From Bolinopsis microptera (taxonomy: Eukaryota; Ctenophora; Tentaculata; Lobata; Bolinopsidae), in NCBI RefSeq assembly GCF_026151205.1, contig NC_087081.1, forward strand, positions 17,275,058 through 17,339,057: 64,000 nt of DNA, given 5' to 3'. Every line of letters starts with the position of its first letter. Positions within the stretch are counted from its first letter, which is position 1. A model generated the notes under the pieces. It searched no databases, had not been told where the DNA came from, and saw only the letters and a program-made list of their open reading frames with translations. The position numbers and the translations under genes were made by a program. Positions 7,749 through 64,000 of the stretch are shown here, one piece after another.

Positions 7749-9624
7749 TGGTGGTGGTGATGGGCTAGGCGTCTAAGGGTCCCTCAAGCAAGGTCTTCTT
7801 AGCAAACGCCAGGATTTCTATCGGGTTGGTGGTTAGTATGTCCAAGTTTTAAGTCAGATTTTCCGAAGATTTCTTCTCTCGTCCTGATCGTTGCAGGGCA
7901 CCGAATCCAGAGTGGTACCGTTTCTTCTTCTTCTCCGCAACGGGGACAAGTTGCACTCTTTGTAGAGTCGATCCTATTTTTGTAGTGGGACAGGTGAAGG
8001 CAATGGCCTGCTCTGAGTTGTGCTAGCAGCGCTCCGTCTTTCCTGCTCTCTATTTTACTGTCCGCTCTTTTTCTGTTGTATCCCTTGTAAGTCTGGGAGA
8101 CCAGGTGGTGTTGGGGGTCGCTATCCTTGATGTGAGCCTTTGCTACTGCTCTGGCAACTCCGTATGAGATTGTAGACTGTCCTTGGCCCAGGTCGGGAGT
8201 TGTGCTGCTTCCTTTGCTGCTTTGTCAGCGTATTCGTTCCCAGGAATGTTGGAGTGGCCGGGAATCCAGTGCAGGTACGTTGTCCCATGGAGTGATTCCA
8301 GAGTTTTCCTGATATTCTGTGTGTCTGGGTTCAGGCTATCGATGCTAGTCAGTAATGCCTGGCTATCAGAGCATATGATGGTGTCATCATACTTCTGGTT
8401 CTCTGTCATCCATTTCAGGGCTTCCGTAAGTGCAGTTTTCTCCTCACCATAGGAGCAGGTGAACTTATTTCCCTTCTTTTTGATGGTCTCCAGTATAACG
8501 GGGTTAGCTGCTGACCCTGTGGTGATAACTGCTGCTGCTCCACCTTCCTTTGTTCCACCTTTACATGATCCGTCAGTATAGATGGTAGTACATATGTCGT
8601 ACTTGTCAATCATTCTGATAGCACTTTGGGCGGTCAGTCTTTTGGCAGAGCTTTCGTTAGCTGAATCGCTTGTGTCCCAGAAAGTGTCTCTTGGTCGTGT
8701 GGAGAAAGGGTGTTGGTTGTTAGGCACAGCTGGATGGGATTTGGGTACTAGCATAGGAGTCTCTGGGAGTGCTGTGAACACTTTCCAGTTCCTTTTCCTC
8801 TGTTCTTCTGAATTCTCCCAGGGCTTTTGGAATGGAGATGGGAGGGCTTCTACGGGATTTCCGTGAGTTGGTAGTTGCCCTCTGGTGGAGTTAGTTTTCT
8901 CTCTCCAGGAACTACGGATCTTGCTTCTGTGGGTGGTAGGTGTTTTAGGGCGTAGTGCTGCGTGCCTTGGATGATCTGAAGGGAGTCGGTCTGCTTTTTC
9001 TGCAGCAATAGTGATGATTCGCTCACTATGTGTCTTGTAGCTTTCAACTTCAGCTTCGATTCTTAGCGCTTCTGTAGGTGTTGACGAGTATTGACCAGTG
9101 ACTAGCCTCAGGGCTTTGTTCTGTGCTACTTCTAGCTTGTTGAGTTGAGTAGCAGATAGCCATGGTTGCCAAGCAGCTGCAGCATAATCAAGTACGCTCC
9201 TCTGGGTAGCAATGTACACCCCTCCGTAGGTTTTCTTTTCTCCAGCCCCACTGTTTTCCTGCCAGGGACGCCAGTATCTTACAGCGTTCAGAGACTTTCT
9301 TGGTCACTTCAGTGACATGCTGTTGAAATGACAGTGTTCGGTCCATATGAACCCCAAGGAACTTTGGGCTAGCGTTGAACGGGATAGGTGTTACATCCAG
9401 GTTCAAGGAGGGTCTCCACTTTGCTTCATTAGTAGCTGGAGTGAAGAACGTAGCTTCACTTTTATCTACATTGAGCATCATCTTTTTCCTGTTGCTCCAT
9501 TCCTGTACTTTATCAAGAGCTAGCTGAACTTGTCTGTTGGCTTTGTTGAGATCGATGTCTGATGCCCACAGGGAGGCATCATCTGCAAACAGAGCTAACT
9601 CTACTCCTTCTGGGATCACTTCAC
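7749..9624 (-). mobile_element. 5'-truncated non-LTR retrotransposon with RNase H domain
   Basis: On the minus strand the element starts inside a reverse transcriptase domain (ALFADDASLWAS, at 9188-9619). It continues after a frameshift near 9200 through the thumb region to an RNase H domain (8143-9219) with TDGSC, E..AL, CSDSQAL and WIPGHSNIPGNEYAD. A degraded CPRCG zinc knuckle (about 7940-7980) and a CAC-repeat tail near 7748 follow. The RNase H suggests an I/R1/LOA-type LINE. It lacks ORF1, the endonuclease and most of the RT, and carries stops, so it is a dead 5'-truncated insertion. The same 35-bp minisatellite flanks both sides. Confidence 0.88.
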
Positions 9625-23238: not shown

Positions 23239-26200
23239 TCAAAGAGCGTCCACTCTAAGAAGAGAAGTAGAATCGAGAAGTTGAGGAAGAGGGCCGGTAT
23301 CCCTGGCAACACACACAGACAACTGGTTAATGTTGTATACTCCCGGTGTAGAGAAGACAGCCGTCAAGTTTACTGATCTTGTCACGTGATCAGGTATCTC
23401 TATCTTGTGACGGACTACACCCGACCACATGAAGGGGAGAGTGTCCTTTGGTGGAGCCGGCCTGTGGGAATATCATATCATAACCACAATAATAAGGGAG
23501 CAATACTTTGGTGGAGCCGGCCTGTGGGAATATCATATCATAACCACAATAATAAGGGAGCAATACTTTGGTGGAGCCGGCCTGTGGGAATATCATATCA
23601 TAACCACAATAATAGGGGAGCAATACTTTGGTGGAGCCGGCCTGTGGGAATATCATATCATAACCACAATAATAGGGGAGCAATACTTTGGTGGAGCCGG
23701 CCTGTGGGAATATCATATCATAACCACAATAATAGGGGAACAATACTTTGGTGGAGCCGGCCTGTGGGAATATCATATCATAACCACAATAATAGGGGAG
23801 CAATACTTTGGTGGAGCCGGCCTGTGGGAATATCATATCATAACCACAATAATAGGGGAACAATACTTTGGTGGAGCCGGCCTGTGGGAATTTCATATCA
23901 TAACCACATTAATAGGGGAGCAATACTTTGGTGGAGCCGGCCTGTGGGAATATCATATCATAACCACAATAATAGGGGAACAATACTTTGGTGGAGCCGG
24001 CCTGTGGGAATATCATATCATAACCACAATAATAGGGGAACAATACTTTGGTGGAGCCGGCCTGTGGGAATTTCATATCATAACCACAATAATAGGGGAG
24101 CAATACTTTGGTGGAGCCGGCCTGTGGGAATATCATATCATAACCACAATAATAAGGGAGCAATACTTTGGTGGAGCCGGCCTGTGGGAATATCATATCA
24201 TAACCACAATAATAAGGGAGCAATACTTTGGTGGAGCCGGCCTGTGGGAATATCATATCATAACCACAATAATAAGGGAGCAATACTTTTGGTGGAGCCG
24301 GCCTGTGGGAATATCATATCATAACCACAATAATAAGGGAGCAATACTTTGGTGAAGCCGGCCTGTGGGAATTTCATATCATAACCACAATAATAAGGGA
24401 GCAATACTTTGGTGGAGCCGGCCTGTGGGAATTTCATATCATAACCACAATAATAAGGGAGCAATACTTTGGTGGAGCCGGCCTGTGGGAATTTCATATC
24501 ATAACCACAATAATAAGGGAGCAATACTTTGGTGGAGCCGGCCTGTGGGAGTTTCATATCATAACCACAATAATAAGGGAGCAATACTTTGGTGGAGCCG
24601 GCCTGTGGGAATTTCATATCATAACCACAATAATAGGGAGCAATACTTTGGTGGAGCCGGCCTGCGGGAATTTCATATCATAACCACAATAATAAGGGAG
24701 CAATACTTTGGTGGAGCCAGCCTGTGGGAATTTCATATCATAACCACAATAATAAGGGAACAATACTTTGGTGGAGCCGGCCTGTGGGAATTTCATATCA
24801 TAACCACAATAATAAGGGAGCAATACTTTGGTGGAGCCGGCCTGTGGGAATTTCATATCATAACCACAATAATAAGGGAGCAATACTTTGGTGGAGCCGG
24901 CCTGTGGGAATTTCATATCATAACCACAATAATAGGGGAGCAATACTTTGGTGGAGCCGGCCTGTGGGAGTTTCATATCATAACCACAATAATAAGGGAG
25001 CAATACTTTTGGTGGAGCCGGCCTGTGGGAATTTCATATCATAACCACAATAATAGGGGAACAATACTTTGGTGGAGCCGGCCTGTGGGAGTTTCATATC
25101 ATAACCACAATAATAGGGGAGCAATACTTTGGTGGAGCCGGCCTGTGGGAATATCATATCATAACCACAATAATAAGGGAGCAATACTTTAGTGGAGCCG
25201 GCCTGCGGGAATTTCATATCATAACCACAATAATAAGGGAGCAATACTTTAGGGTAAGTATAGGAGCAAGTGTGTACGAGTAGGAATAACATTATCTGAC
25301 TAACCTGCCAGCAGTGGTATTAGCAGTAACCATAACAGTAAGTGAGGTGTTGTAACAGTTAGTAATGTGCAGTGTTACCGGTACCGGCAGCAGAGGTGCC
25401 GTCTTGAAATCTGCTGACCAAGTTTCCTGGTAACTCAGACCCAAACTTAGTAACTGTGGGAATGTATATATTAGAATGTGCGCTACAGGTAAAATTGTTT
25501 GCTACGATAAAAGTAGATTATAAGTACGTTTGACGGATACAAATTAATAACTTATTAACTAAAGAGATACAAGTTAAGTAACTTATTAATTTAGTAACTG
25601 ATTGGATGTGAATTGTCAGTTTAGAATTAGTTGATTGAAGAACTGCTCGAGTGCTCTTATTGATCATGTCTCACAAAATATTGGAATTATTGTTGTATTT
25701 TGATGGCTTATTGGCGACAAATTTATAATAACTTTTCATTAATTAAGTCGGTACCTGTTGAGGCTGTGGAAGGAGAGAAGCCTGTAGAGCGGTGTGGTTT
25801 TGAGCATGGAGTATTCTAGACTTGTTGCCCTCCTCAGAGACACTGCCCTCCCAGAACACTAGCATTCCTGCAGTGGGAACTGTGTATTAAAGAGAACACT
25901 AGCATTCCTGCAGTTGGAACTGTATTAAAGAGAACACTAGCATTCCTGCAGTGGGAACTGTATTAAAGAGGACACTAGCATTCCTGCAGTGGGAACTGTA
26001 TTAAAGAGAACACTACCATTTCTGCAATGGGAACTGTGTATTAAAGAGGACACTAGCATTCCTGCAGTGGGAACTGTGTATTAAAGAGGACACTAGCATT
26101 CCTGCAATGGGAACTGTGTATTAAAGAGAACACTAGCATTCCTGCAGTGGGAACTGTGTATTAAAGAGAACACTAGCATTCCTGCAGTGGGAACTGTGTA

Positions 26201-29200
26201 TTAAAGAGAACACTAGCATTCCTGCAGTGGGAACTGTGTATTAAAGAGGACCAGGAAACAAATATATTTTCTTGATGGGAAAGAACTAAAGCAGATAAGT
26301 GGTAAAATGAAACATTGTTTCCTGCAAAGTATGAACTATGTAGTGAGTATGTACCCATGTTATAGTGGGGAGATGTAAAGTATGTACCCATGTTATAGTG
26401 GGGAGATGTAAAGTATGTACCCATGTTATAGTGGGGAGATGTAAAGTATGTACCCATGTTATAGTGGGGAGATGTAAAGTATGTACCCATGTTATACTGG
26501 GGAGATGTAAAGTATGTACCCATGTTATAGTGGGGAGATGTAAAGTATGTACCCATGTTATAGTGGGGAGATGTAAAGTATGTACCCATGTTATAGTGGG
26601 AAGATGTAAAGTATGTACCCATGTTATAGTGGGGAGATGCAAAGTATGTACCCATGTTATAGTGGGGGGATGTAAAGTATGTACCCATGTTAAAGTGGGG
26701 AGATGTAAAGTATGTACCCATGTTATAGTGGGGAGATGTAAAGTATGTACCCATGTTATAGTGGGGAGATGTAAAGTATGTACCCATGTTATAGTGGGGA
26801 GATGTAAAGTATGTACCCATGTTATAGTGGGGAGATGTAAAGTATGTACCCATGTTATAGTGGGGAGATGTAAAGTATGTACCCATGTTAAAGTGGGGAG
26901 ATGTAAAGTATGTACCCATGTTATAGTGGGGAGATGTAAAGTATGTACCCATGTTATAGTGGGGAGATGTAAAGTATGTACCCATGTTATAGTGGGGAGA
27001 TGTAAAGTATGTACCCATGTTATAGTGGGGAGATGTAAAGTATGTACCCATGTGATAGTGGGGAGATGTAAAGTATGTACCCATGTTATAGTGGGGAGAT
27101 GTAAAGTATGTACCCATGTTATAGTGGGGAGATGTAAAGTATGTACCCATGTTATAGTGGGGAGATGTAAAGTATGTACCCATGTTATAGTGGGGAGATG
27201 TAAAGTATGTACCCATGTTATAGTGGGGAGATGTAAAGTATGTACCCATGTTATAGTGGGGAGATGTAAAGTATGTACCCATGTTATAGTGGGGAGATGT
27301 AAAGTATGTACCCATGTTATAGTGGGGAGATGTAAAGTATGTACCCATGTTATAGTGGGGAGATGTAAAGTATGTACCCATGTTATAGTGGGGAGATGTA
27401 AAGTATGTACCCATGTTATAGTGGGGAGATGTAAAGTATGTAAAGTATGTAAAGTATGTAAAGTATGTAAAGTATGTACCCATGTTATAGTGGGGAGATG
27501 TAAAGTATGTACCCATGTTAAAGTGGGGAGATGTAAAGTATGTACCCATGTTATAGTGGGGAGATGTAAAGTATGTACCCATGTTATAGTGGGAAGATGT
27601 AAAGTATGTACCCATGTTATAGTGGGGAGATGTAAAGTATGTACCCATGTTATAGTGGGGAGATGTAAAGTATGTACCCATGTTATAGTGGGGAGATGTA
27701 AAGTATGTACCCATGTTATAGTGGGGAGATGTAAAGTATGTACCCATGTTATAGTGGGGAGATGGACTGTCTGCGGAGGTTTTGTTCGCCTCAAGGCAGG
27801 CCTGTGATCTCCTGTACAGATCTAGCACGTGATTAGCCGAGGTATCTACTAGCGGTCCACCTCCCAAACTGAGAGGAGTTATGAAGTTGAGGTCATTTAT
27901 AGAAAATATCATCTCATGTTACCTCTAGACAATGGAACTTGTTTTATTTCTAATCTGAATCAGAGAACATTACAATTACAGCTAATAATCATGGTATATC
28001 AAAATTTCGTGTATCGTTGATATATTCATATATAATATATATACCATTAGTAATTACCTGACACTAGAAAAGTAAGCAGATTCTTTGGGAGAAAGTTCAG
28101 CTCTAAACGGAATGTTGATACTTGCACCTGGATACACAACTAATGGAATGTTAGACTCCAAGCTGTTCATGATCCAACGGTTGCTCACCAAACTCAGCTG
28201 GGTCACCTGTAAAGTAACAATGTTAAACTTATAACTTATAAGTGATAAATAAAAAGTGATAACGTCGGAAACATGTTATGAAAATGGAAATGGAAATGAA
28301 GTGGATTTAACATAACTTCGTGGAATCGTGCCGAGAGCTAATACCGCATTCTTTTTATTTACTGTTGATCGATCTTCTCTGTTCATATGCTATCTTCAAG
28401 TCAATATCAGTTTAAAGATGTAGGTGGTGGAATGTAACACAAACTCACATGAAGATCTTGTAGACTGAGCGAATAATATCCCACATTGTTAACTATAACA
28501 GAACCCAGCAGCTGTAATTTGTTGTGGGACGTCGGAGTAACGTTACAAACTCGTGATTCTACCGTCACGCTCACACTGATGTTGACCTTCGTTTCTGTGC
28601 TCACTGCCCGGTGACTGAGAAAAATCATACTTGAAGTAAATCAATTGAAATGGTTAATTTGCAAAGTAAAATTCAATTTTGAACAATTCTCAAAGTGACA
28701 TATTTCCAGTAACTAACTTTTTTGAAAACCAAATAGAATAATATATGATACAAAGAAAACTTCATTTACGGACGTGAGGAGAGTAAGGACTCCTCCAACT
28801 ACATTAAATCAATTCCTTCTGTAACGTCCTCAATAAATTTTAGTTGATGATGAGAGATAAGACTCAGAATTGGGATTGAAAAATTTTAAGTCGAAATAGG
28901 AGTTCTGTCCCGGCCGATAGAATCCCCTGGCACGGATGTCAGGGTGCACATTGTCTCCTGTTAGTGTGGCATTTGTTGAGAAAGTCTCCCCGTCTAGAGT
29001 CTGCAGGTGGGGTTCACATTTCACGTCTTTACAAACAGTTGATATTTGTTTGGCGATGAAATCCCTAACTGAGTTGTGGCGGATGATGATGTAGCCTCCT
29101 CTTGGACCTTTGGACAGTTTAGAGCATGGTTGATGTCCATTTTGGCCCAACAAACACATGACTGAAGTAATCGTGGAAGGTCTTTGTTATATCGTAGAAG

Positions 29201-32200
29201 TAGACTATTCCTGAATTCCCCTTTGTTCAGTGTGAAACCATAAATCTCTCACTGCTTTCATTGCAGACTAACGTATATTCTGATTCTTGCTTATCTGCTC
29301 TCACTTTGAGAATTTCTTGCAGCGACTCGGAATCCTGATCTATATCTGTTTCAATTCCGGCCATGGCCTTTACTAAGAACTAATCACTTCCATGGATGTT
29401 TGATACTCCTCTGATGCCAACTTTGATAAAACTGGTATGCCTAGTCCCCCATATCGTACGGGTAGCGCAACTGTTCTTGGTGTAATAGGGCATCCAAATA
29501 AAGCCGGTATGAATTTCTCATCGATAAGCATGTCAAGAGGTTGCAAGTATTGATCTATTCCTTCAATTGTTCTCATGAAGTATGTAATTTTGTGTCTAAA
29601 TCCATGAGTGAATGCTGCATGAGCTGCTTGTGGCTGGGATTGACCAAAATCTGATAATCTGTTGATCATTTTGGCCCATCCTTCAACTAAATTATTGATG
29701 TAAAGTTGTTTATATTCCTGTGACTCAATAACCGCTCCAAGATGTCTCTGTCCATTTATTTTTATCTCAATCCCGCTTTCTCCAAATATAACTAAAAAAG
29801 AATATTGATGAAGGAGCAATGAACTAACATTTCATTTGCATGTCAGTTAACTTCTACACAAATTGTTTTTGTTCTTTCTTAAGTTGCAATTCCAAGGCCA
29901 CAACGCTTAACTTCACGAAGTTAAGAATGTATAGAAGATAAGCATATAAAGCAATGCAACATCCTTTAATTTCAGTGTCTACAAGTAGTTCATTTTTCTT
30001 TAGACAGATCTGAGCATTCGTTCGAATTTCGAGGGAAACGCCTTGCGTATAGTAATTTTAGTATTATATTGATTTAACTTGGCTATAGTATTTCGGCATT
30101 ATCGACGGCCAGCTCTGTTGCTCTCACGCCTCAGCTCACCACTAAAGACATTTTTTGGGGCTGCCATCTGTTGATGAAATTATTGATTTTATGTTTGGAA
30201 ATTCGTTACTGTCATAACTATATCTTCATTGCTAGGTTTTATGACAATTTTCAATAATACGTACTCGAAGAAACAGGCTGCAACAGTGCTACTTGATGAT
30301 GAAATTAAAGTTTCTCTTCGCTCTCACATTGGCTCTGATCACGGGTAGGATTTCATTCCATATTATTATTTTGAAGACATACAGGATCGGAGTTATGTAA
30401 ACAAGCAGGAATGCAACGAGTAATAAATTTAAAAGACTACTACAAATTTCAAATTTGATGAACCTTTAATGATATTTGCAGCCACTACTGAGGACAGAGT
30501 AAAAATTACAACGAGGCTCTAAAATATATGTTAGAACTAGTTAAAAATAGCCATTGCATCTGGACACTAAGAGTCGGAAAGGCAATTTTAAGAGATATAA
30601 ACATTTTCTGCATTTTACTGCTTAATAAATTATTTGAGTAAAGAGTTACTAGGAGATTTTCGATATTATGATTAAAGACGATAGGCAGCCCTTCATTTTA
30701 AAGACTTTTGCCCTACCTATGTGAACGATATTAATTTCAGTTAAACAAGTCAAGACAGATTGCAGAAAAGACCTAAGCGGGTTTGAAAAGCTTCTTCTAG
30801 AGGAGCACAATAAAATCAGAGATTTATACCCTGAACTGCCAAGTTTATGCTATGCTGGAAGCGCTAATGGAATCCACCTCAACGCTCAACAATGGGTAGA
30901 AAGTAGTACAGCTAATAAAACTACAGTTGATGATTTATCGCACAGTCCCTTGGCAGTAGAAAAAAAGGTAGGAGAGAACATAGGAAAAATGCTTGCGGTT
31001 GAAGGTGACGTAGAAACGGTCATATCTATTGTGAGAGATTGGTTCAATCCTTGTCAGTATGTACTGTTAGATCTTATCGATGCTCAGGGGATAGACGACT
31101 ATGGGTTAAGGAAATGCGCTCAGATCCTGTGGAAGAGTACCATGTATGTCAACTGTGGCCTTAAAATAATGCCAGACAAGCAAGTTTTAACAATGTGTCA
31201 ATATTATCCTCCTATGATTCTAGCATCTACTAGTAGTAATATCAAGGAGAACCTTGTATCATTGACGGGTCGGGAACACATCATAGAGGACCAGCGGAGT
31301 TATCAGTTCAACTTCAGTAGGTCACAATTACAGTTTAAAGCATTCCAAGCTGTGGAGTTCGGACTAACCATATTTCAAAATAACACGCGAGGACCTTTAT
31401 TGGAATGGAAGTTAGATCCTCAAAAAAATGCAATTTATTATTTAAAGTACTGTGACTTAGAATTGCTAGTCAACGAAAACACCGAACACTACACACAAAT
31501 TGTGTACACTCTTTACACAATAAAAGTAAATGAAGTGGGTTTCGAAATATTGGCCAATGGAACAACGATGTTTTTCATCGAAGTGGGAAAGATCGAAGGA
31601 GCAGAGGATTGCCTGGAGGACTGGAAAACTTTGACTAAATCAGAATATGCCGGTTTCAAGACAAGGATTATAGGATACTTAAAATATGATATTAAAAATT
31701 GGTTTAGACCTTTGCCAACTTCAAACTTAAAGAAACTAGACATCGATTATGGTATGAAAATAGAAGACTTATTTTCAAGAGATGAAAGGGGCAAAAGGCA
31801 AGCAGATGTGACAGGAATTTATGAGACAGAGAACAACGTATTTGACCTTGATGATGACGATAACGACTCATCATCACAGAAGTTAACTGATAAAAAGCAT
31901 TACATTATAACTGACAACGATGGCAAGAAAATAAACGTTACTTTCCCACCGATTCACGTAACATTTGGTACACGAACAAACGGCGCAGCTAAAACCTTTA
32001 TCGACACTACTGATGATTTTGAAGGAATAGAAAGATTTCAGCTCATACTCCAGCAAGGGGAACATAAAGGAATTCTCACGGGTAACGATCAACTTTACAC
32101 TTGGCAAGAAGCTAAGAAAGCGTATGACGAAAAGGGACTTCTGCTTCCGTACATTACTGCCGAGCTTAAGTCGAACGACTTCGGAAGGTTTGTTTGTTTG

Positions 32201-38200: not shown

Positions 38201-41200
38201 GTGCGTGAGAGTACGTGAGAGTGCGTGATAGTGCGTGAGAGTGCGTGAGATTGCGTGAGAGTGCGTGAGAGTGCGTGACTCCAACAAGAGTCACGTGATC
38301 AACTAGCGCACAACCCATCACATTCTACAAGGAGATTGTATAGAACTCAGTGAACTGCTATCCAATGTAAAATAAAACTTCACTTTGGAAGCGAGGCAAG
38401 ATAAAGCACCACTTTTAATAAACAAGGATGAAAATCAATTTACACTATTAGTATTACTATTACAGGTAACTGTATTACAGGTAAATGGAAAGGTCAGAAA
38501 ACAACAATTTACAAAAAAACCCACAATATAAATTATTTTTCTTATACCATTAATAATTTATCATGTCTACAAACTCGGTTCAAATAATGATTACTGAGCC
38601 AGTAAATAGGTTTTCATTAAAAATAATGAGCCAGTAAGGTTTCACTAAAAATAGTGAGCCAGTAAGTAGGTTTCACTACAAATAATAAGCCAGTTAGTAG
38701 GTTTCACTAAAAATAGTGAGCCAGTAAGTAGGTTTCACTACAAATAGTGAGCCAGTAAGTAGGTTTCACTACAAATAGTGAGCCAGTAAGTAAGTTTCAC
38801 TGTGATTAAGGGGATTATAGGTATTAGGTAGGAAGACTGATCCACTGGGCGAGAAGACTGATCCACTGGGCGAGAAGACTGATCCACTGGGCGAGAAGAC
38901 TGATCCACTGGGAGAGAAAACTGATCCACTGGGCGAGAAGACTGATCCACTGGGCGAGGAGACTGATCCACTGGGCGAGAAGACTGATCCACTGGGCGAG
39001 AAGACTGATCCACTGAGCGAGGAGACTGATCCACTGGGAGAGAAGACTGATCCACTGGGCGAGAAGACTGATCCACTGGGAGAGAAGACTGATCCACTGG
39101 GCGAGGAGACTGATCCACTGGGCGAGAAGACTGATCCACTGGGCGAGGAGACTGATCCACTGAGCGAGAAGACTGATCCACTGGGAGAGGAGACTGATCC
39201 ACTGGGAGAGAAGACTGATCTACTGGGAGAGAAGACTGATCCACTGGGCGAGGAGACTGGTCCACTGGGAGAGAAGACTGATCCACTGGGAGAGAAGACT
39301 GATCCACTGAGCGAGAAGACTGATCCACTGGGCGAGGAGACTGGTCCACTGGGAGAGAAGACTGATCCACTGGGCGAGAAGACTGATCCACTGGGCGAGA
39401 AGACTGATCCACTGGGAGAGAAGACTGATCCACTGGGAGAGAAGACTGATCCACTGGGAGAGAAGACTGATCCACTGGGAGAGAAGACTGATCCACTGAG
39501 CGAGAAGACTGATCCACTGGGAGAGAAGACTGATCCACTGGGAGAGAAGACTGATCCACTGAGCGAGAAGACTGATCCACTGGGAGAGAAGACTGATCCA
39601 CTGGGAGAGAAGACTGTCTCACTAAGTGAGGAGTTGGGGGAGTCCTCTGACAGTGTCATGTCGGATGAAACAGGCGGATAAATGCGGGAGGAACATGTAG
39701 TAATAGTAGGAACAGTGGAACTGGAGAATATGAGGGGTTTGACAAAGAGTAGTGGTTTTACGAACATGGGACTTTCAATGCTGTCTTTACGGGGTGCCTC
39801 CTTCAACATAGTCCTCTGTGTATTAGGAATACTGGGAATACTAGCAATACTGGGAGCTATAAGTAGTAGACTAGGGGGATTGGGAGAAAGTGTTTCCTCG
39901 TGTAACTGCTGATGCTCTATTAACAGTGAGTTTTGGAGTGTTTTGAAGGAACATAGAGAACACCTGTAAGTGATGAGACCGCTGTAAGTAGTACCACTAG
40001 TAGACACTGCTAGACCAGCAGGGTCGTAACCCTGGTAACCCTGGTAACCCTGGTAACCCTGGTAACCCTGGTAACCCAGCCCGTGGAGCTGCTGATGCTC
40101 TTCTAGCTGAGAATTGTGGCGTGTTTTGAAGGAACATAGAGAGCACCTGTAGGTTCTCTGCCCCCCATTATTATGGTTCCGCTGGTGAGAAGCTAAGGTA
40201 GATTTTCTAGCAGTAGAAAAGGAACAATGGGAACACTTGTAGGGTTTCTTTCCAGTATGAACTCGTTGATGAACATTCAAGTTATGTTTACGACCTGTAG
40301 TGTAGGCGCAATCACGGCATTTGTGTGTTACCTTTAGGATGGGAACAGTAGAACTACAGTGTTCATTATTGATGTGACTTAGTGGAGAACCAAGATAATG
40401 TTGCTGAACATGTTCTGTGAAGTTATCCTCGTTAGAAAACATAGTTCGGCATGAAGGGCATACACTACTACTACTACTACATACAAAACCTTCTGATTTA
40501 GCAACAACCCTATCTTCCTTTTTTACTTCCGTTTTTATTATTTCTGGAAATACAATGCCTGGATCCATCATTCAGCTTTCTGGGAAATCTTTGTTTACTA
40601 ATTACTAATTACTAATTATTAAATCGGCTATTAAGAAGTAAATGTTTAATAAGAATATACAATTAAGAATGAATAAGTGTCAAAAAGAGAGCATCACGGC
40701 TCTCGACAGACAAAGTGAAACAAGGCGAATGAATGGAGAAAAACTAACTGAAATAATCGACCTTTCAGCACTCATGAGATCTATGAATGAACATATCCTC
40801 AGCACATATACTGAGAGTAAGAGTGGAGAAAGTAGAAATGTGCTTCCTACAACCAGTAAGGTACCATTAGTTAGTAGTATATATTTGTTGCAGTAGTCAG
40901 GAATACTCAGGATCTAATAAGGGTCTAATAGTAATCACACATAAACACATACGCGGCATTCCTGTAACATCCCTAAACTTGTATCACTATTGTACCAGTA
41001 CTAGTGGAACCCGTGCCAGTATTATACCAGTACAGGAACAACTAAAAGCACTGGATATTACATCTAATATTACAAGCAGGTAATGGTATCTCATTACAGC
41101 TGGTACAAGCAGGTAATGGTATCTCATTACAGCTGGTACAAGCAGATAATGGTATATCATAACAGCTGGTACAAGCAGGTAATTATAGTATATCATTACA

Positions 41201-44200
41201 GCTGGTACAAGCAGGTAATGGTATTTCATTACAGCTGGTACAAGCAGGTAATGGTATATCATTACAGCTGGTACAAGCAGGTAATGGTATATCATTACAG
41301 CTGGTACAAGCAGGTAATGGTATATCATTACAGCTGGTACAAGCAGGTAATGGTATATCATTACAGCTGGTACAAGCAGGTAATGGTATCTCATTACAGC
41401 TGGTACAAGCAGGTAATGGTATCTCATTACAGCTGGTACAAGCAGGTAATGGTATCTCATTACAGCTGGTACAAGCAGGTAATGGTATCTCATTACAGCT
41501 GGTACAAGCAGGTAATGGTATCTCATTACAGCTGGTACAAGCAGGTAATGGTATCTCATTACAGCTGGTACAAGCAGGTAATGGTATCTCATTACAGCTG
41601 GTACAAGCAGGTAATGGTATCTCATTACAGCTGGTACAAGCAGAGCAGGTAATGGTATCTCATTACAGCTGGTACAAGCAGGTAATGGTATCTCATTACA
41701 GCTGGTACAAGCAGGTAATGGTATCTCATTACAGCTGGTACAAGCAGGTAATGGTATCTCATTACAGCTGGTACAAGCAGAGCAGGTAATGGTATCTCAT
41801 TACAGCTGGTACAAGCAGGTAATGGTATCTCATTACAGCTGGTACAAGCAGGTAATGGTATCTCATTACATCTGGTACAAGCAAGTAATGGTATCTCATT
41901 ACAGCTGGTACAAGCAGGTAATGGAATCTCATTACAGCTGGTACAAGCAGGTAATGGTATCTCATTACAGCTGGTACAAGCAGGTAATGGTATATCATTA
42001 CAGCTGTTACAAGCAGGTAATAGTATCTCATTACAGCTGGTACAAGCAGGTAATGGTATATCATTACAGCTGTTACAAGCAGGTAATGGTATCTCATTAC
42101 AGCTGGTACAAGCAGGTAATGGTATATCATTACAGCTGTTACAAGCAGGTAATGGTATCTCATTACAGCTGGTACCTGCAGGTAATGGTATATCATTACA
42201 GCTGGTACAAGCAGGTAATGGTATCCATTACAGCTGGTACAAGCAGGTAATGGTATCTCATTACATCTGGTACAAGCAAGTAATGGTATCTCATTACAGC
42301 TGGTACAAGCAGGTAATGGTATCTCATTACAGCTGGTACAAGCAGGTAATGGTATCTCATTACATCTGGTACAAGCAAGTAATGGTATCTCATTACAGCT
42401 GGTACAAGCAGAGCAGGTAATGGTATATTATTACAGCTGGTACAAGCAGGTAATGGTATCTCATTAATACAGCTGGTACAAGCAGGTAATGGTATCTCAT
42501 TACAGCTGGTACAAGCAGGGAATGGCATCTCATTGATACAGCTGGTACAAGCAGGTAATGGTATCTCATTACAGCTGGTACAAGCAGGTAATGGTATCTC
42601 ATTACAACTGGTACAAGCAGGTGATGGTATATCATTACAGCTGGTACAAGCAGGTAATGGTATCTCATTACAACTGGTACAAGCAGGTAATGGTATCTCA
42701 TAACATCTGGTACAGTGGTACAAGCAGGTAATGGTATCTCATCACAGCTGGTACAGCTGGTACAAGCAGGTAATGGTATATCATAACAGCTGGTACAAAC
42801 AGGTAACGGTATCATGCGTAATGTGTATATTATACATAAGATGGTAACACTATTACTCTGTTTCCTGTCCACTACTGCAAACAATTAATTGTAACGCTGC
42901 TGTTCTCTGTTCCACACTTCATTTTTTAGCTTTGTGTTCAAAGTTAACATTGTGATAACGTTTCTGAAGTGCCTACTTCTGTGCCACCCTGTACTTAAAA
43001 TATAATTTTTAGTAGGGTCATATTAGTAGACCCCCCCCCCGTATTATTAGCTTCTTTACTGCTGACACCTTCCCTCTTACAGGGATTGTTTGTTTTGCTG
43101 ATTTTTTCCATTTCTTGTGGTCTGAATGTTATAGTATTGTACTATCTTTATACTTTTATAGTACACTGATTGGCACAAGTTCATTAAGTATCGTTATATA
43201 AACAACACACAGTCAGTGACTGTTTTAGTGGTCACCACTTAACAAGTCACCAATTAAACACACCTAATTAACATTGCGTGTTAAAAGAATACACTACTAT
43301 ACCAATTAAACACACCTAATTAACATTGCGTGTTAAAAGAATACACTACTATACCAATTAAACACACCTAATTAACATTGCGTGTTAAAAGAATACACTA
43401 CTATACCAATTAAACACACCTAATTAACATTGCGTGTTAAAAGAATACACTACTATACCAATTAAACACACCTAATTAACATTGCGTGTTAAAAGAATAC
43501 ACTACTATACCAATTAAACACACCTAATTAACATTGCGTGTTAAAAGAATACACTACTATACCAATTAAACACACCTAATTAACATTGCGTGTTAAAAGA
43601 ATACACTACTATACCAATTAAACACACCTAATTAACATTGCGTGTTAAAAGAATACACTACTATACCAATTAAACACACCTAATTAACATTGCGTGTTAA
43701 AAGAATACACTACTATACCAATTAAACACACCTAATTAACATTGCGTGTTAAAAGAATACACTACTATACCAATTAAACACACCTAATTAACATTGCGTG
43801 TTAAAAGAATACACTACTATACCAATTAAACACACCTAATTAACATTGCGTGTTAAAAGAATACACTACTATACCAATTAAACACACCTAATTAACATTG
43901 CGTGTTAAAAGAATACACTACTATACCAATTAAACACACCTAATTAACATTGCGTGTTAAAAGAATACACTACTATACCAATTAAACACACCTAATTAAC
44001 ATTGCGTGTTAAAAGAATACACTACTATACCAATTAAACACACCTAATTAACATTGCGTGTTAAAAGAATACACTACTATACCAATTAAACACACCTAAT
44101 TAACATTGCGTGTTAAAAGAATACACTACTATACCAATTAAACACACCTAATTAACATTGCGTGTTAAAAGAATACACTACTATACCAATTAAACACACC

Positions 44201-47200
44201 TAATTAACATTGCGTGTTAAAAGAATACACTACTATACCAATTAAACACACCTAATTAACATTGCGTGTTAAAAGAATACACTACTATACCAATTAAACA
44301 CACCTAATTAACATTGCATGTTAAAAGAATACACTACTATACCAATTAAACACACCTAATTAACATTGCGTGTTAAAAGAATACACTACTATACCAATTA
44401 AACACACCTAATTAACATTGCGTGTTAAAAGAATACACTACTATACCAAGTTATCTCTACTTTTTATTAACATATAATAATTAGTTTCTGTAATATGTCA
44501 ATTTCAATAATCTTATAAAATATAAGCATCACTTTGGACAGTTTTTGTCAATTTTTGTCAATTTTCCTTAGTTTCATTTTTTTAATTTGCCCTAGGTATG
44601 TACTGAGTATGTACTAGGTATGTACTATGTACATAAAATTACCTAGTACATACATACAAATAAAGTTTGAATCCGTCAATTGAACTAGTTTTAATGTTAA
44701 ATCACAGAGATCATTACTTTGAAGAGTAATTATAATAATAATAATTTGGTCGACCGCAGTCGGGGAGCCGATTTCCCTGTCTAATTGCATTTCGGCCACG
44801 GTCCTTTCGGTACAGATTTCCCTGCAGTATAGTCGGGACGCAACCCCAGGCGTATACACTCGTGTTATATTCGCAGCTCTAATGAAAGCCACTACCATTT
44901 ACACCATGGTTTGGTGAGTGACGGCTGCCCTTCAGTTTTTGAGATTTTAGCCCAACTGGGATTCGAACTCGCAACCTCCAGGCCAGTAGACAGGCGGATT
45001 AACCGACTGAGCCACTGAGCCACTTGAGCCACTGAGCCACTGAGAGTAATTATAATTTTTATACAACAGGAAAGAGAGTGCCCTTATCTCGTTACTCGCC
45101 TCTCTTTGGTGCCATCAGGAGCTTGCTTGTCCAGTGCTTTAGTAGATACCAGATGATAAACAAGGCTAGCTATACTCAAGTTCCCTTCAACTAGCGGGGT
45201 AACAGACAGGGATATTATAACCTCCTCCTCAGGACCTAGTACCAACCGAGCTAGCTCAGACGTTTCAACCTGAGGGACAAAGACCTTCAGTTTATTAAAT
45301 ATTGCACACTTCTTGTTTATCAGGTAATTTATTTGACATGATATCTAAAACTACAGTACGTGTACCTCACAGACCACACTACAGTACGTGTACCTCACAG
45401 ACCCCACTACAGTACGTGTACCTCACAGACCACACTACAGTACGTGTACCTCACAGACCACACTACAGTACGTGTACCTCACAGACCCCACTACAGTACG
45501 TGAACCTCACAGACCACACTACAGTACGTGTACCTCACAGACCACACTACAGTACGTGTACCTCACAGACCACACTACAGTACGTGAACCTCACAGACCA
45601 CACTACAGTACGTGTACCTCACAGACCACACTACAGTACGTGTACCTCACAGACCACACTACAGTACGTGGACCTCACAGACCACACTACAGTACGTGTA
45701 CCTCACAGACCACACTACAGTACGTGTACCTCACAGACCACACTACAGTACGTGTACCTCACAGACCACACTACAGTGCGTGTACCTCACAGACCACACT
45801 ACAGTACGTGTACCTCACAGACCACACTACAGTACGTGTACCTCACAGACCACACTACAGTACGTGTACCTCACAGACCACACTACAGTACGTGTACCTC
45901 ACAGACCACACTACAGTACGTGTACCTCACAGACCACACTACAGTACGTGTACCTCACAGACCCCACTACAGTACGTGCACCTCACAGACCACACTACAG
46001 TACGTGTACCTCACAGACCACACTACAGTACGTGTACCTCACAGACCACACTACAGTACGTGTACCTCACAGACCACACTACAGTACGTGTACCTCACAG
46101 ACCACACTACAGTACGTGTACCTCACAGACCACACTACAGTACGTGTACCTCACAGACCACACTACAGTACGTGTACCTCACAGACCACACTACAGTACG
46201 TGCACCTCACAGACCACACTACAGTACGTGTACCTCACAGACCACACTACAGTACGTGTACCTCACAGACCACACTACAGTAAGTGTACCTCACAGACCA
46301 CACTACAGTACGTGCACCTCACAGACCAGGGGTGTAGGAATGATTTTCTTCATGGGGGGGGGGGCCAAATTCAAAATATTTTTTGGCGCTTCGCGCCACA
46401 CCCTAAATTTTTTGGCCCTTCGCGCCAAATCCTGAATTTCGAGGGTAAGGGCAAAAGAAAATTGCAGCATGTGCGGTATCGCGATTTTTCACGTTTGCCG
46501 CGACAAATCGCGATTTTTCAGATTCTGGCCTCACGACAAATCGCGATTTTTTTCAGTTCTCCGCTTCAAATTGCGCATTTTCCTTTAAATCTACGGACCA
46601 AATTCTCGTTTTCTATAATTAGTATATGAAACCAATCAGTATCGCATCCACAACCTTCCGAATGTAGGCACGGACTTCAAAAAACCGAAAACAGAAAAAT
46701 ATATTTTCGGCTCAGAATGATCAAGGTAGCATGAAACATGAACTAAAGTAATTTCCAGAAAAACTTTGAAAAATTTTGACTTAGAAAATTGTCGGTCCGA
46801 GTCATTCTCGATACGTACCTCTGAAAGCAGAGCTCCCGCTTCCGAGCTCGTATTGCGAAGGGGAGGCCTGCCTTCCGAGATCGCATTACAAAGGCCAAAG
46901 GGGAACCCTCGAGTCCAAAATCATATATCGAACTTCGAAAACAGAAAAATATATTTTCGGCTCAGAATGATCAAGGTAGCATGAAACATGAACTAAAGTA
47001 ATTTCCAGAAAAACTTTGAAAAATTTTGACTTAGAAAATTGTCGGTCCGAGTCATTCTCGATACGTACCTCTGAAAGCAGAGCACCCGCTTCCGAGCTCG
47101 TATTGCGAAGGGGAGGCCTGCCTTCCGAGATCGCATTACAAAGGCCAAAGGGGAACCCTCGAGTCCAAAATCATATATCGAACTTCGAAAACAGAAAAAT

Positions 47201-63902: not shown

Positions 63903-64000
63903 CTTAGTTAGCAACTAAAAATGAAAGTGAAAGTGAAACATATCGAACATACCAGGGTCTCCTTCACCATCCCGACAACTTAGTTAACAACTCAAAGTGA
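63868..64000 (-). repeat. Two-copy duplication around a possible small TRAPPC8 exon
   Basis: cataccagg(g)gtctccttcac and the following ~40 bases occur at about 63871-63915 and 63948-63995. On the minus strand this reads VGMVKETP followed by a CCTG/GTATGT donor in the phase needed for the next exon. The second copy runs to the window edge. Confidence 0.55.

Follow-up and report, generated by a model that had tools for sequence, protein, structure and literature searches.

Probable mirage-type minisatellites at the exon edges of TRAPPC8, including an intron amplified at both ends

We analysed a stretch of 64,000 nucleotides (the window; C10:17275058-17339057, contig NC_087081.1, in a genome of 264.7 Mb) whose minus strand carries the 3' part of TRAPPC8, the last exons matching the Pfam family PF24542. 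In this gene, the intron between exons B and C (27743-25868) opens with tandem copies of its own 5' splice site and closes with tandem copies of its own 3' splice site. It is not singular, being one of about ten such structures in TRAPPC8. They are likely to be exon-edge minisatellites of the type known from amphioxus as mirages, grown from chance duplications that spanned a splice junction, with splicing kept at the exon-proximal sites.

Tandem Repeats Finder (TRF) reports 42.9 copies of a 33-bp unit at the donor end of the B-C intron and 10.1 copies of a 40-bp unit at the acceptor end, with 97 bp of unrelated sequence between the two arrays. The initial annotation had given about 42 donors, about 10 acceptors and about 90 unrelated bases, and these estimates hold. 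On the minus strand, the donor unit reads ...ATGG/GTACATAC (the slash marks the splice junction), and its exact 12-mer ATGGGTACATAC occurs 42 times in the window and 27 times in a second copy of the gene, R, described below. The acceptor unit reads ...CTGCAG/GAATG and is present in the window as 9 exact motifs GCAGGAATG plus one GCAGAAATG, and in R as 21 plus one variant. The two units are mutually unrelated. Both hold exon as well as intron sequence (21 nt of exon in the donor unit, 15 nt in the acceptor unit), most of their copies carry splice signals, and array length is unstable between homologous copies of the gene (haplotypes or duplicates), all of them features of mirages. The frame of the donor array is open, with no stop in 472 codons of the window or in 295 of R, as had been proposed for this unit divisible by three; the acceptor unit, of 40 bp and locally 38 bp, is not divisible by three. 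Joining the outermost donor to the innermost acceptor, done on R, keeps an open frame, in agreement with the phase-1 fit suggested earlier. The extent of exon B had to be corrected, since it had been placed at 27744-27902 and its true start is at 27868 (CTCTCAG/TTTGGG).

A DNA search of the genome found an inverted homologue of the window gene 134 kb away on the same chromosome. This second copy (R, C10:17383001-17442900) is longer than the one in the window and covers TRAPPC8 to the stop, beginning near position 310 of the PF12739 profile (453 positions), the earlier exons not having been located. Exons e2, e3 and e4 have one genomic match each, and e5 and A0-E have two in inverted orientation (e1 lay outside this search). 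The window copy could be a truncated duplicate in inverted orientation; the alternative is a second haplotype that was retained. Across 362 codons of the seven shared exons there are 27 synonymous and 2 nonsynonymous changes between the copies and not a single stop, evidence against the window copy being dead; for exons B and C the identity is 98.4% and 97.3%, without gaps. Two unrelated loci show this arrangement, each an inverted pair on one chromosome with about 134 and 153 kb between the members: C10:17298299-17303640 (in the window) with C10:17436457-17442639, and C11:11963502-11968049 with C11:12108836-12116669. Both pairs are either large inverted duplications or misplaced haplotypes.

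The protein supports several of the array junctions. In R, exons A0-E form one open frame of 307 codons through to the stop, and a second open frame spans exons e2b-e8. Its product shows a gap-free alignment with the Drosophila chain 7b6e_A over residues 3-149 (E 4.2e-42), which crosses the junctions of two arrays, at the e3 acceptor and the e4 donor. The PF12739 score rises from 67.4 bits with e2 to 84.3 bits when e1 is added across the e1-e2 intron, and the PF24542 match continues across the D-E array junction. Since homology runs without an insert at the e1-e2, e3, e4 and D-E junctions, the conserved protein contains no array copies there. We infer from these reading frames and alignments that splicing occurs at the exon-proximal sites. 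A phmmer comparison of the C-terminal part of TRAPPC8 with solved structures gave no match.

R contains 25 arrays with a period of at least 10, at least 3 copies and at least 60 bp, and 26 located junctions. Eight of these arrays span a located exon edge, one more abuts an edge and 16 lie away from located junctions (Table 1). A further junction-spanning array, with a 97-bp unit at the e7 acceptor, is present in the window copy but not in R. The e1-e2 intron also consists of a donor array and an acceptor-side array, with 17 other bases, and only 48 bp of the D-E intron of R lie outside its 60-bp array. The e3 acceptor array (C10:17385919-17394830) reaches 8.9 kb and about 254 units, has long C runs and is the most diverged of the arrays measured. 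Within the D-E array, in R only, we noted by eye a stretch resembling a miniature inverted-repeat transposable element, with inverted G- or C-rich ends (L001 ~8252-8733).

Table 1. TRAPPC8 exons and tandem arrays in the window copy (window positions) and in copy R.
Feature	Copy	Position	Strand	Unit and copies	Remarks
Last exon E, with stop	window	23239-23461	-		start inside 60-bp array; PF24542 Ig_TPPC8_C 3.6e-21
D-E acceptor array	window	23446-25250	-	60 bp x ~30	CCCACAG/GCCGG copies
Exon D	window	25305-25453	-		PF24542 over protein end
Exon C	window	25755-25867	-		first 15 nt part of acceptor unit
B-C acceptor array	window	25853-26248	-	40 bp x ~10	CTGCAG/GAATG copies
Unrelated intron sequence between arrays	window	26249-26345	-		97 bp
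B-C donor array	window	26346-27764	-	33 bp x ~43	ATGG/GTACAT copies; 9-bp sub-repeat at 27429-27478
Exon B	window	27744-27868	-		last 21 nt = first 33-bp copy; R homologue 98.4% identical, joined frame open there
Exon A	window	28058-28206	-		without array
Exon A0	window	28449-28614	-		without array; weak PF24546 Ig_TPPC8_4th, under its cut-off
Exon e9	window	45100-45269	-		single-copy acceptor; 32 copies of 53-bp unit there in R
Exon e7	window	63114-63266	-		exon-proximal copy intact
e7 acceptor array	window	63193-63571	-	97 bp x ~4	distal copy decayed; single copy in R
e6 donor array, inner end	window	63859-64000	-	76-77-bp unit	runs past window edge; junction outside window
e1 donor array	R			41 bp x 44	
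Array abutting e2 acceptor	R			12 bp x 13	
e3 acceptor array	R			35 bp x ~254	unit varies 35-36
e4 donor array	R			34 bp x 6	
e6 donor array	R			77 bp x 5.6	
e9 acceptor array	R			53 bp x 32	
B donor array	R			33 bp x 27	
C acceptor array	R			40 bp x 22	
E acceptor array	R			60 bp x ~37	

The arrays vary widely between homologous copies. The B donor array has 43 units in the window and 27 in R, and the C acceptor array 10 and 22, respectively; the e9 acceptor has 1 copy in the window and 32 in R, the e7 acceptor about 4 in the window and 1 in R, and an acceptor in a myosin gene 3 copies against 1 in the inverted homologue. At e9, e7 and myosin the junction is thus present with a single copy, which indicates that the intron is older than the array. 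In the single-copy state, direct repeats lie on both sides of the unit, 10 bp long (CAACTATTTC) at myosin and AAAC...AAAC, 53 bp apart, at e9, as expected for a duplication between short repeats. In the e7 array decay has affected the distal copy, while the copy next to the exon is intact, and in the e4 array GT was lost in 4 of 6 copies, the inner ones.

We suggest that a tandem duplication between short direct repeats would by chance span the splice junction of a short intron, leaving one intact exon-proximal junction while the extra copies fall inside the intron. Slippage or unequal exchange could then expand and contract the array. Splicing would continue at the outermost donor and the innermost acceptor, and with these sites still in use the extra ones would be invisible to selection. 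The B-C intron may have expanded independently at both ends, from about 134 bp to about 1.8-1.9 kb. Slippage is the probable maker of the arrays, which would be near neutral, in line with their mixed periods, the decayed distal copies at e7 and e4 and the mutated GT/AG of the old arrays.

A uniform null over the whole gene gives 0.96 expected crossings for the 8 seen (P=2e-6), but we set it aside as overly strict, since most of the affected introns were short before they expanded. With each array cut to one unit, five of these introns are short (~36, 92, 96, 134 and 328 bp), unlike those of e4 and e9, which are long, and in short ancestral introns a 40-bp seed would often span an edge. We consider the edge preference largely explained in this way, with a modest excess left. 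That excess comes from a per-intron null conditioned on intron length, which uses estimated ancestral lengths and the exons located so far (more are likely between e9 and A0, which affects the result) in a gene chosen because of the original observation, which also bears on it; 4.21 crossings are expected for the 8 of 25 seen (P=0.005; 0.0047), and 3.38 for 6 of 23 when the B-C intron is excluded (P=0.021). Earlier runs gave 3.84 expected (P=0.0016) and, once exon e2b was placed, 4.24 (P=0.0050). The 27571 array was entered with a period of 70, its TRF period being 211.

Both excesses weigh against growth from chance duplications with exon-proximal splicing, and so do three further points. In the young arrays pooled, GT/AG cells are mutated in 1 of 390 cases, against 166 of 8665 for other cells (Fisher P=0.011; the D-E array of R entered only with the part before the inserted element), a hint of constraint, though mutational hot spots and the common ancestry of the two copies lessen its weight. 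The outermost, frame-preserving donor of the e1 array (C10:17383227) is a weaker-looking GTAGTG, while 35 inner copies have GTAAGT, which is awkward if the outermost site is always used. Finally, at the B-C intron reading frame and phase alone suggest exon-proximal use.

A bolder possibility is that minisatellites in this animal are born preferentially at splice junctions, by a process linked to transcription or splicing. Introns would then lengthen chiefly through the multiplication of their own splice sites, and the spliceosome would follow a strict rule in picking, from tens of identical sites, the one nearest the exon. We regard this as unlikely. A sample of 11 myosin loci (149 kb), selected through Pfam matches irrespective of arrays, has 29 arrays located between exon matches. 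Two of them cross an edge, where 0.56 are expected (P=0.105): a donor array of 22 identical 40-bp units and an acceptor array of three 72-bp units. The crossing at locus M9 was recognised by eye from the exon sequence, since that exon was absent from the results of the family search. The array at M1 was rejected as a crossing, as TRF overlaps the exon match but the sequence puts the repeat in the intron. TCP1 and kinase genes, compact or mostly single-exon over the domain, were left out. Six 10-kb stretches around kinase matches, at most 0.9 Mb from chromosome ends, hold 19 arrays with no clear crossing by eye; exons are unannotated there, and these arrays were kept out of the counts.

The initial annotation had also proposed a ladder of isoforms, in which some transcripts would use inner donors of the 33-bp array and so gain residues between exons B and C, 11 for each step. 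The part of this idea that stands is that the B donor array, open and divisible by three, would allow it. The wider evidence does not favour it: the periods of the 11 crossing arrays (41, 35, 34, 77, 97, 53, 33, 40, 60, 40 and 72) are divisible by three in 3 cases, which is the chance share (4 of 11 if the e3 unit is counted as 36 and not 35), and one of those three, the 60-bp D-E unit, holds a TGA that is in frame with its acceptor. The e1 donor array meets an immediate stop when read beyond its outermost donor. No coding constraint is apparent from the substitutions within the B donor array, with 3 distinct synonymous changes and 6 nonsynonymous ones (P=0.40), and the copy number of this array, as seen above, is unstable. 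A functional ladder is possible but unsupported, and we find it quite unlikely; human IFI6, which uses repeat donors alternatively, keeps the idea testable.

Selection might instead maintain the arrays for their splice-site redundancy, or because they serve splicing factors as a platform (U1, for example, could bind tens of donors), aiding exon definition in long introns. Such a role would agree with the eight of 25 arrays that span an exon edge and with the GT/AG deficit of the young arrays, but the old arrays shed GT/AG freely. Mutated GT/AG cells amount to 5/88 in e1 (88/1715 in other cells) and to 104/510 in e3 (1203/8674), so that in the pool of both the splice core is the more mutated part (109/598 vs 1291/10389), opposite to the young arrays, and the GT losses of e4 go the same way. 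The signals of constraint are therefore contradictory. In addition, some arrays are wholly missing from homologous copies (e9, e7 and myosin), intron length alone predicts about half of the crossings, and the myosin sample gives the P of 0.105 mentioned above. We hold a selected platform to be highly doubtful.

It is very improbable that the arrays created the introns, as in the Rogers model, where a duplicated exonic proto-splice site turns exon into intron. The e1-e2 intron would favour this origin, having only about 36 bp with single units, which is very short for an ancestral intron, and in potato RdRp an intron was gained by duplication across an intron-exon boundary (PMC4974935). However, the donor and acceptor units of the B-C intron do not share the segment that this model expects, other introns retain 48-97 bp of unrelated sequence, and the single-copy junctions at e9, e7 and myosin precede their arrays. 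Least of all do we credit an artefact, with the window copy a truncated duplicate or leftover haplotype, dead or misassembled and unspliced: the single genomic matches of e2-e4 beside the inverted double ones of e5 and A0-E would allow it, but the copy continuous with e1-e4 carries both B-C arrays too, the shared exons diverge almost entirely at synonymous sites, and a donor array of 22 copies is seen in an unlinked myosin gene too.

Other features were observed in the introns of TRAPPC8. One contains an open reading frame (ORF) for a rhodopsin-type receptor (PF00001, 4.5e-14; C10:17403422-17404486), and a 38-bp array (17404467-17404941) begins over its last codons and stop, indicating that edge-crossing arrays are not confined to splice sites. 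Another intron has two zinc-finger-like ORFs, recognised by eye (C10:17418304-17419278), the second continuing in frame into a 21-bp array (17419256-17419767), possibly a coding repeat. In the window, a 33-bp x 52 array (41071-42813) has a plus-strand unit with both CAG/GTAATG and TTACAG/CTGG, and no exon could be tied to it. Retroelement-like ORFs, also seen by eye, lie on the minus strand upstream of A0 (28830-29831) and are found in R as well.

The junctions of TRAPPC8 offer 1, 4, 10, 22, 27, 32, 43 and hundreds of near-identical sites, some of these numbers belonging to the same junction, and form a natural dose series for the choice of the spliceosome among identical sites. They also point to a straightforward way for a compact intron to grow more than tenfold with the protein unchanged, the single-copy and amplified states coexisting. 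If such arrays are common outside amphioxus, automatic annotation of these genomes would often misplace exon ends.

Among known systems, the closest are the mirages of amphioxus, minisatellite-like tandem repeats across 5' or 3' exon-intron boundaries of Adh3, the globins BflGb6/BflGb9, troponin C and PGBD5, with units of 10-160 bp and splice signals in many copies (PMC3087553 and PMC3902484). In the globin case, 6 and 3 units occur on two haplotypes and RT-PCR (reverse transcription PCR) suggests regular splicing (PMC3087553). In human IFI6 (G1P3), minisatellite units supply donors at an exon end, as in TRAPPC8, and inner repeat donors are used, giving three mRNAs (PMC4526556), whereas in TRAPPC8 the use of inner donors is only hypothetical and acceptors are amplified too. 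Variable minisatellites of ~30 bp at exon-intron boundaries alter gene structure in human segmental duplications (PMC2812944), where the study stresses novel introns in recent paralogues, while in TRAPPC8 existing introns were lengthened. The boundary-crossing duplication of potato RdRp copied the acceptor, pyrimidine tract and branch site, and one extra copy made a new spliced intron (PMC4974935); TRAPPC8 has many copies and no sign of new introns. In a C. elegans study, a minisatellite is tied to alternative splicing and not, in the portion accessible, to copied splice sites (PMC4039745). The accessible parts of the open-licence literature yielded no precedent for an intron amplified at both ends and, on minisatellites with introns, sponges or intron length, nothing closer than mirages.

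With mirages, TRAPPC8 shares boundary-spanning repeats, splice signals within the copies and variable copy number. It differs in that about ten junctions of one gene are affected, in that both ends of one intron are arrays, which is seen in two introns (one of which has an acceptor-side array that merely adjoins the junction), and in copy numbers of 27-43 and about 254, against the 3-6 quoted for BflGb6. The CCT-epsilon protein of the host has its best matches among animal chains and aligns with a mammalian chain over its length at 898 bits, with many differences, a clear divergence from mammals. What is unusual compared with mirages is the scale and the amplification of both ends of one intron, and probably also the lineage, since the host is presumably not a cephalochordate, unlike amphioxus.

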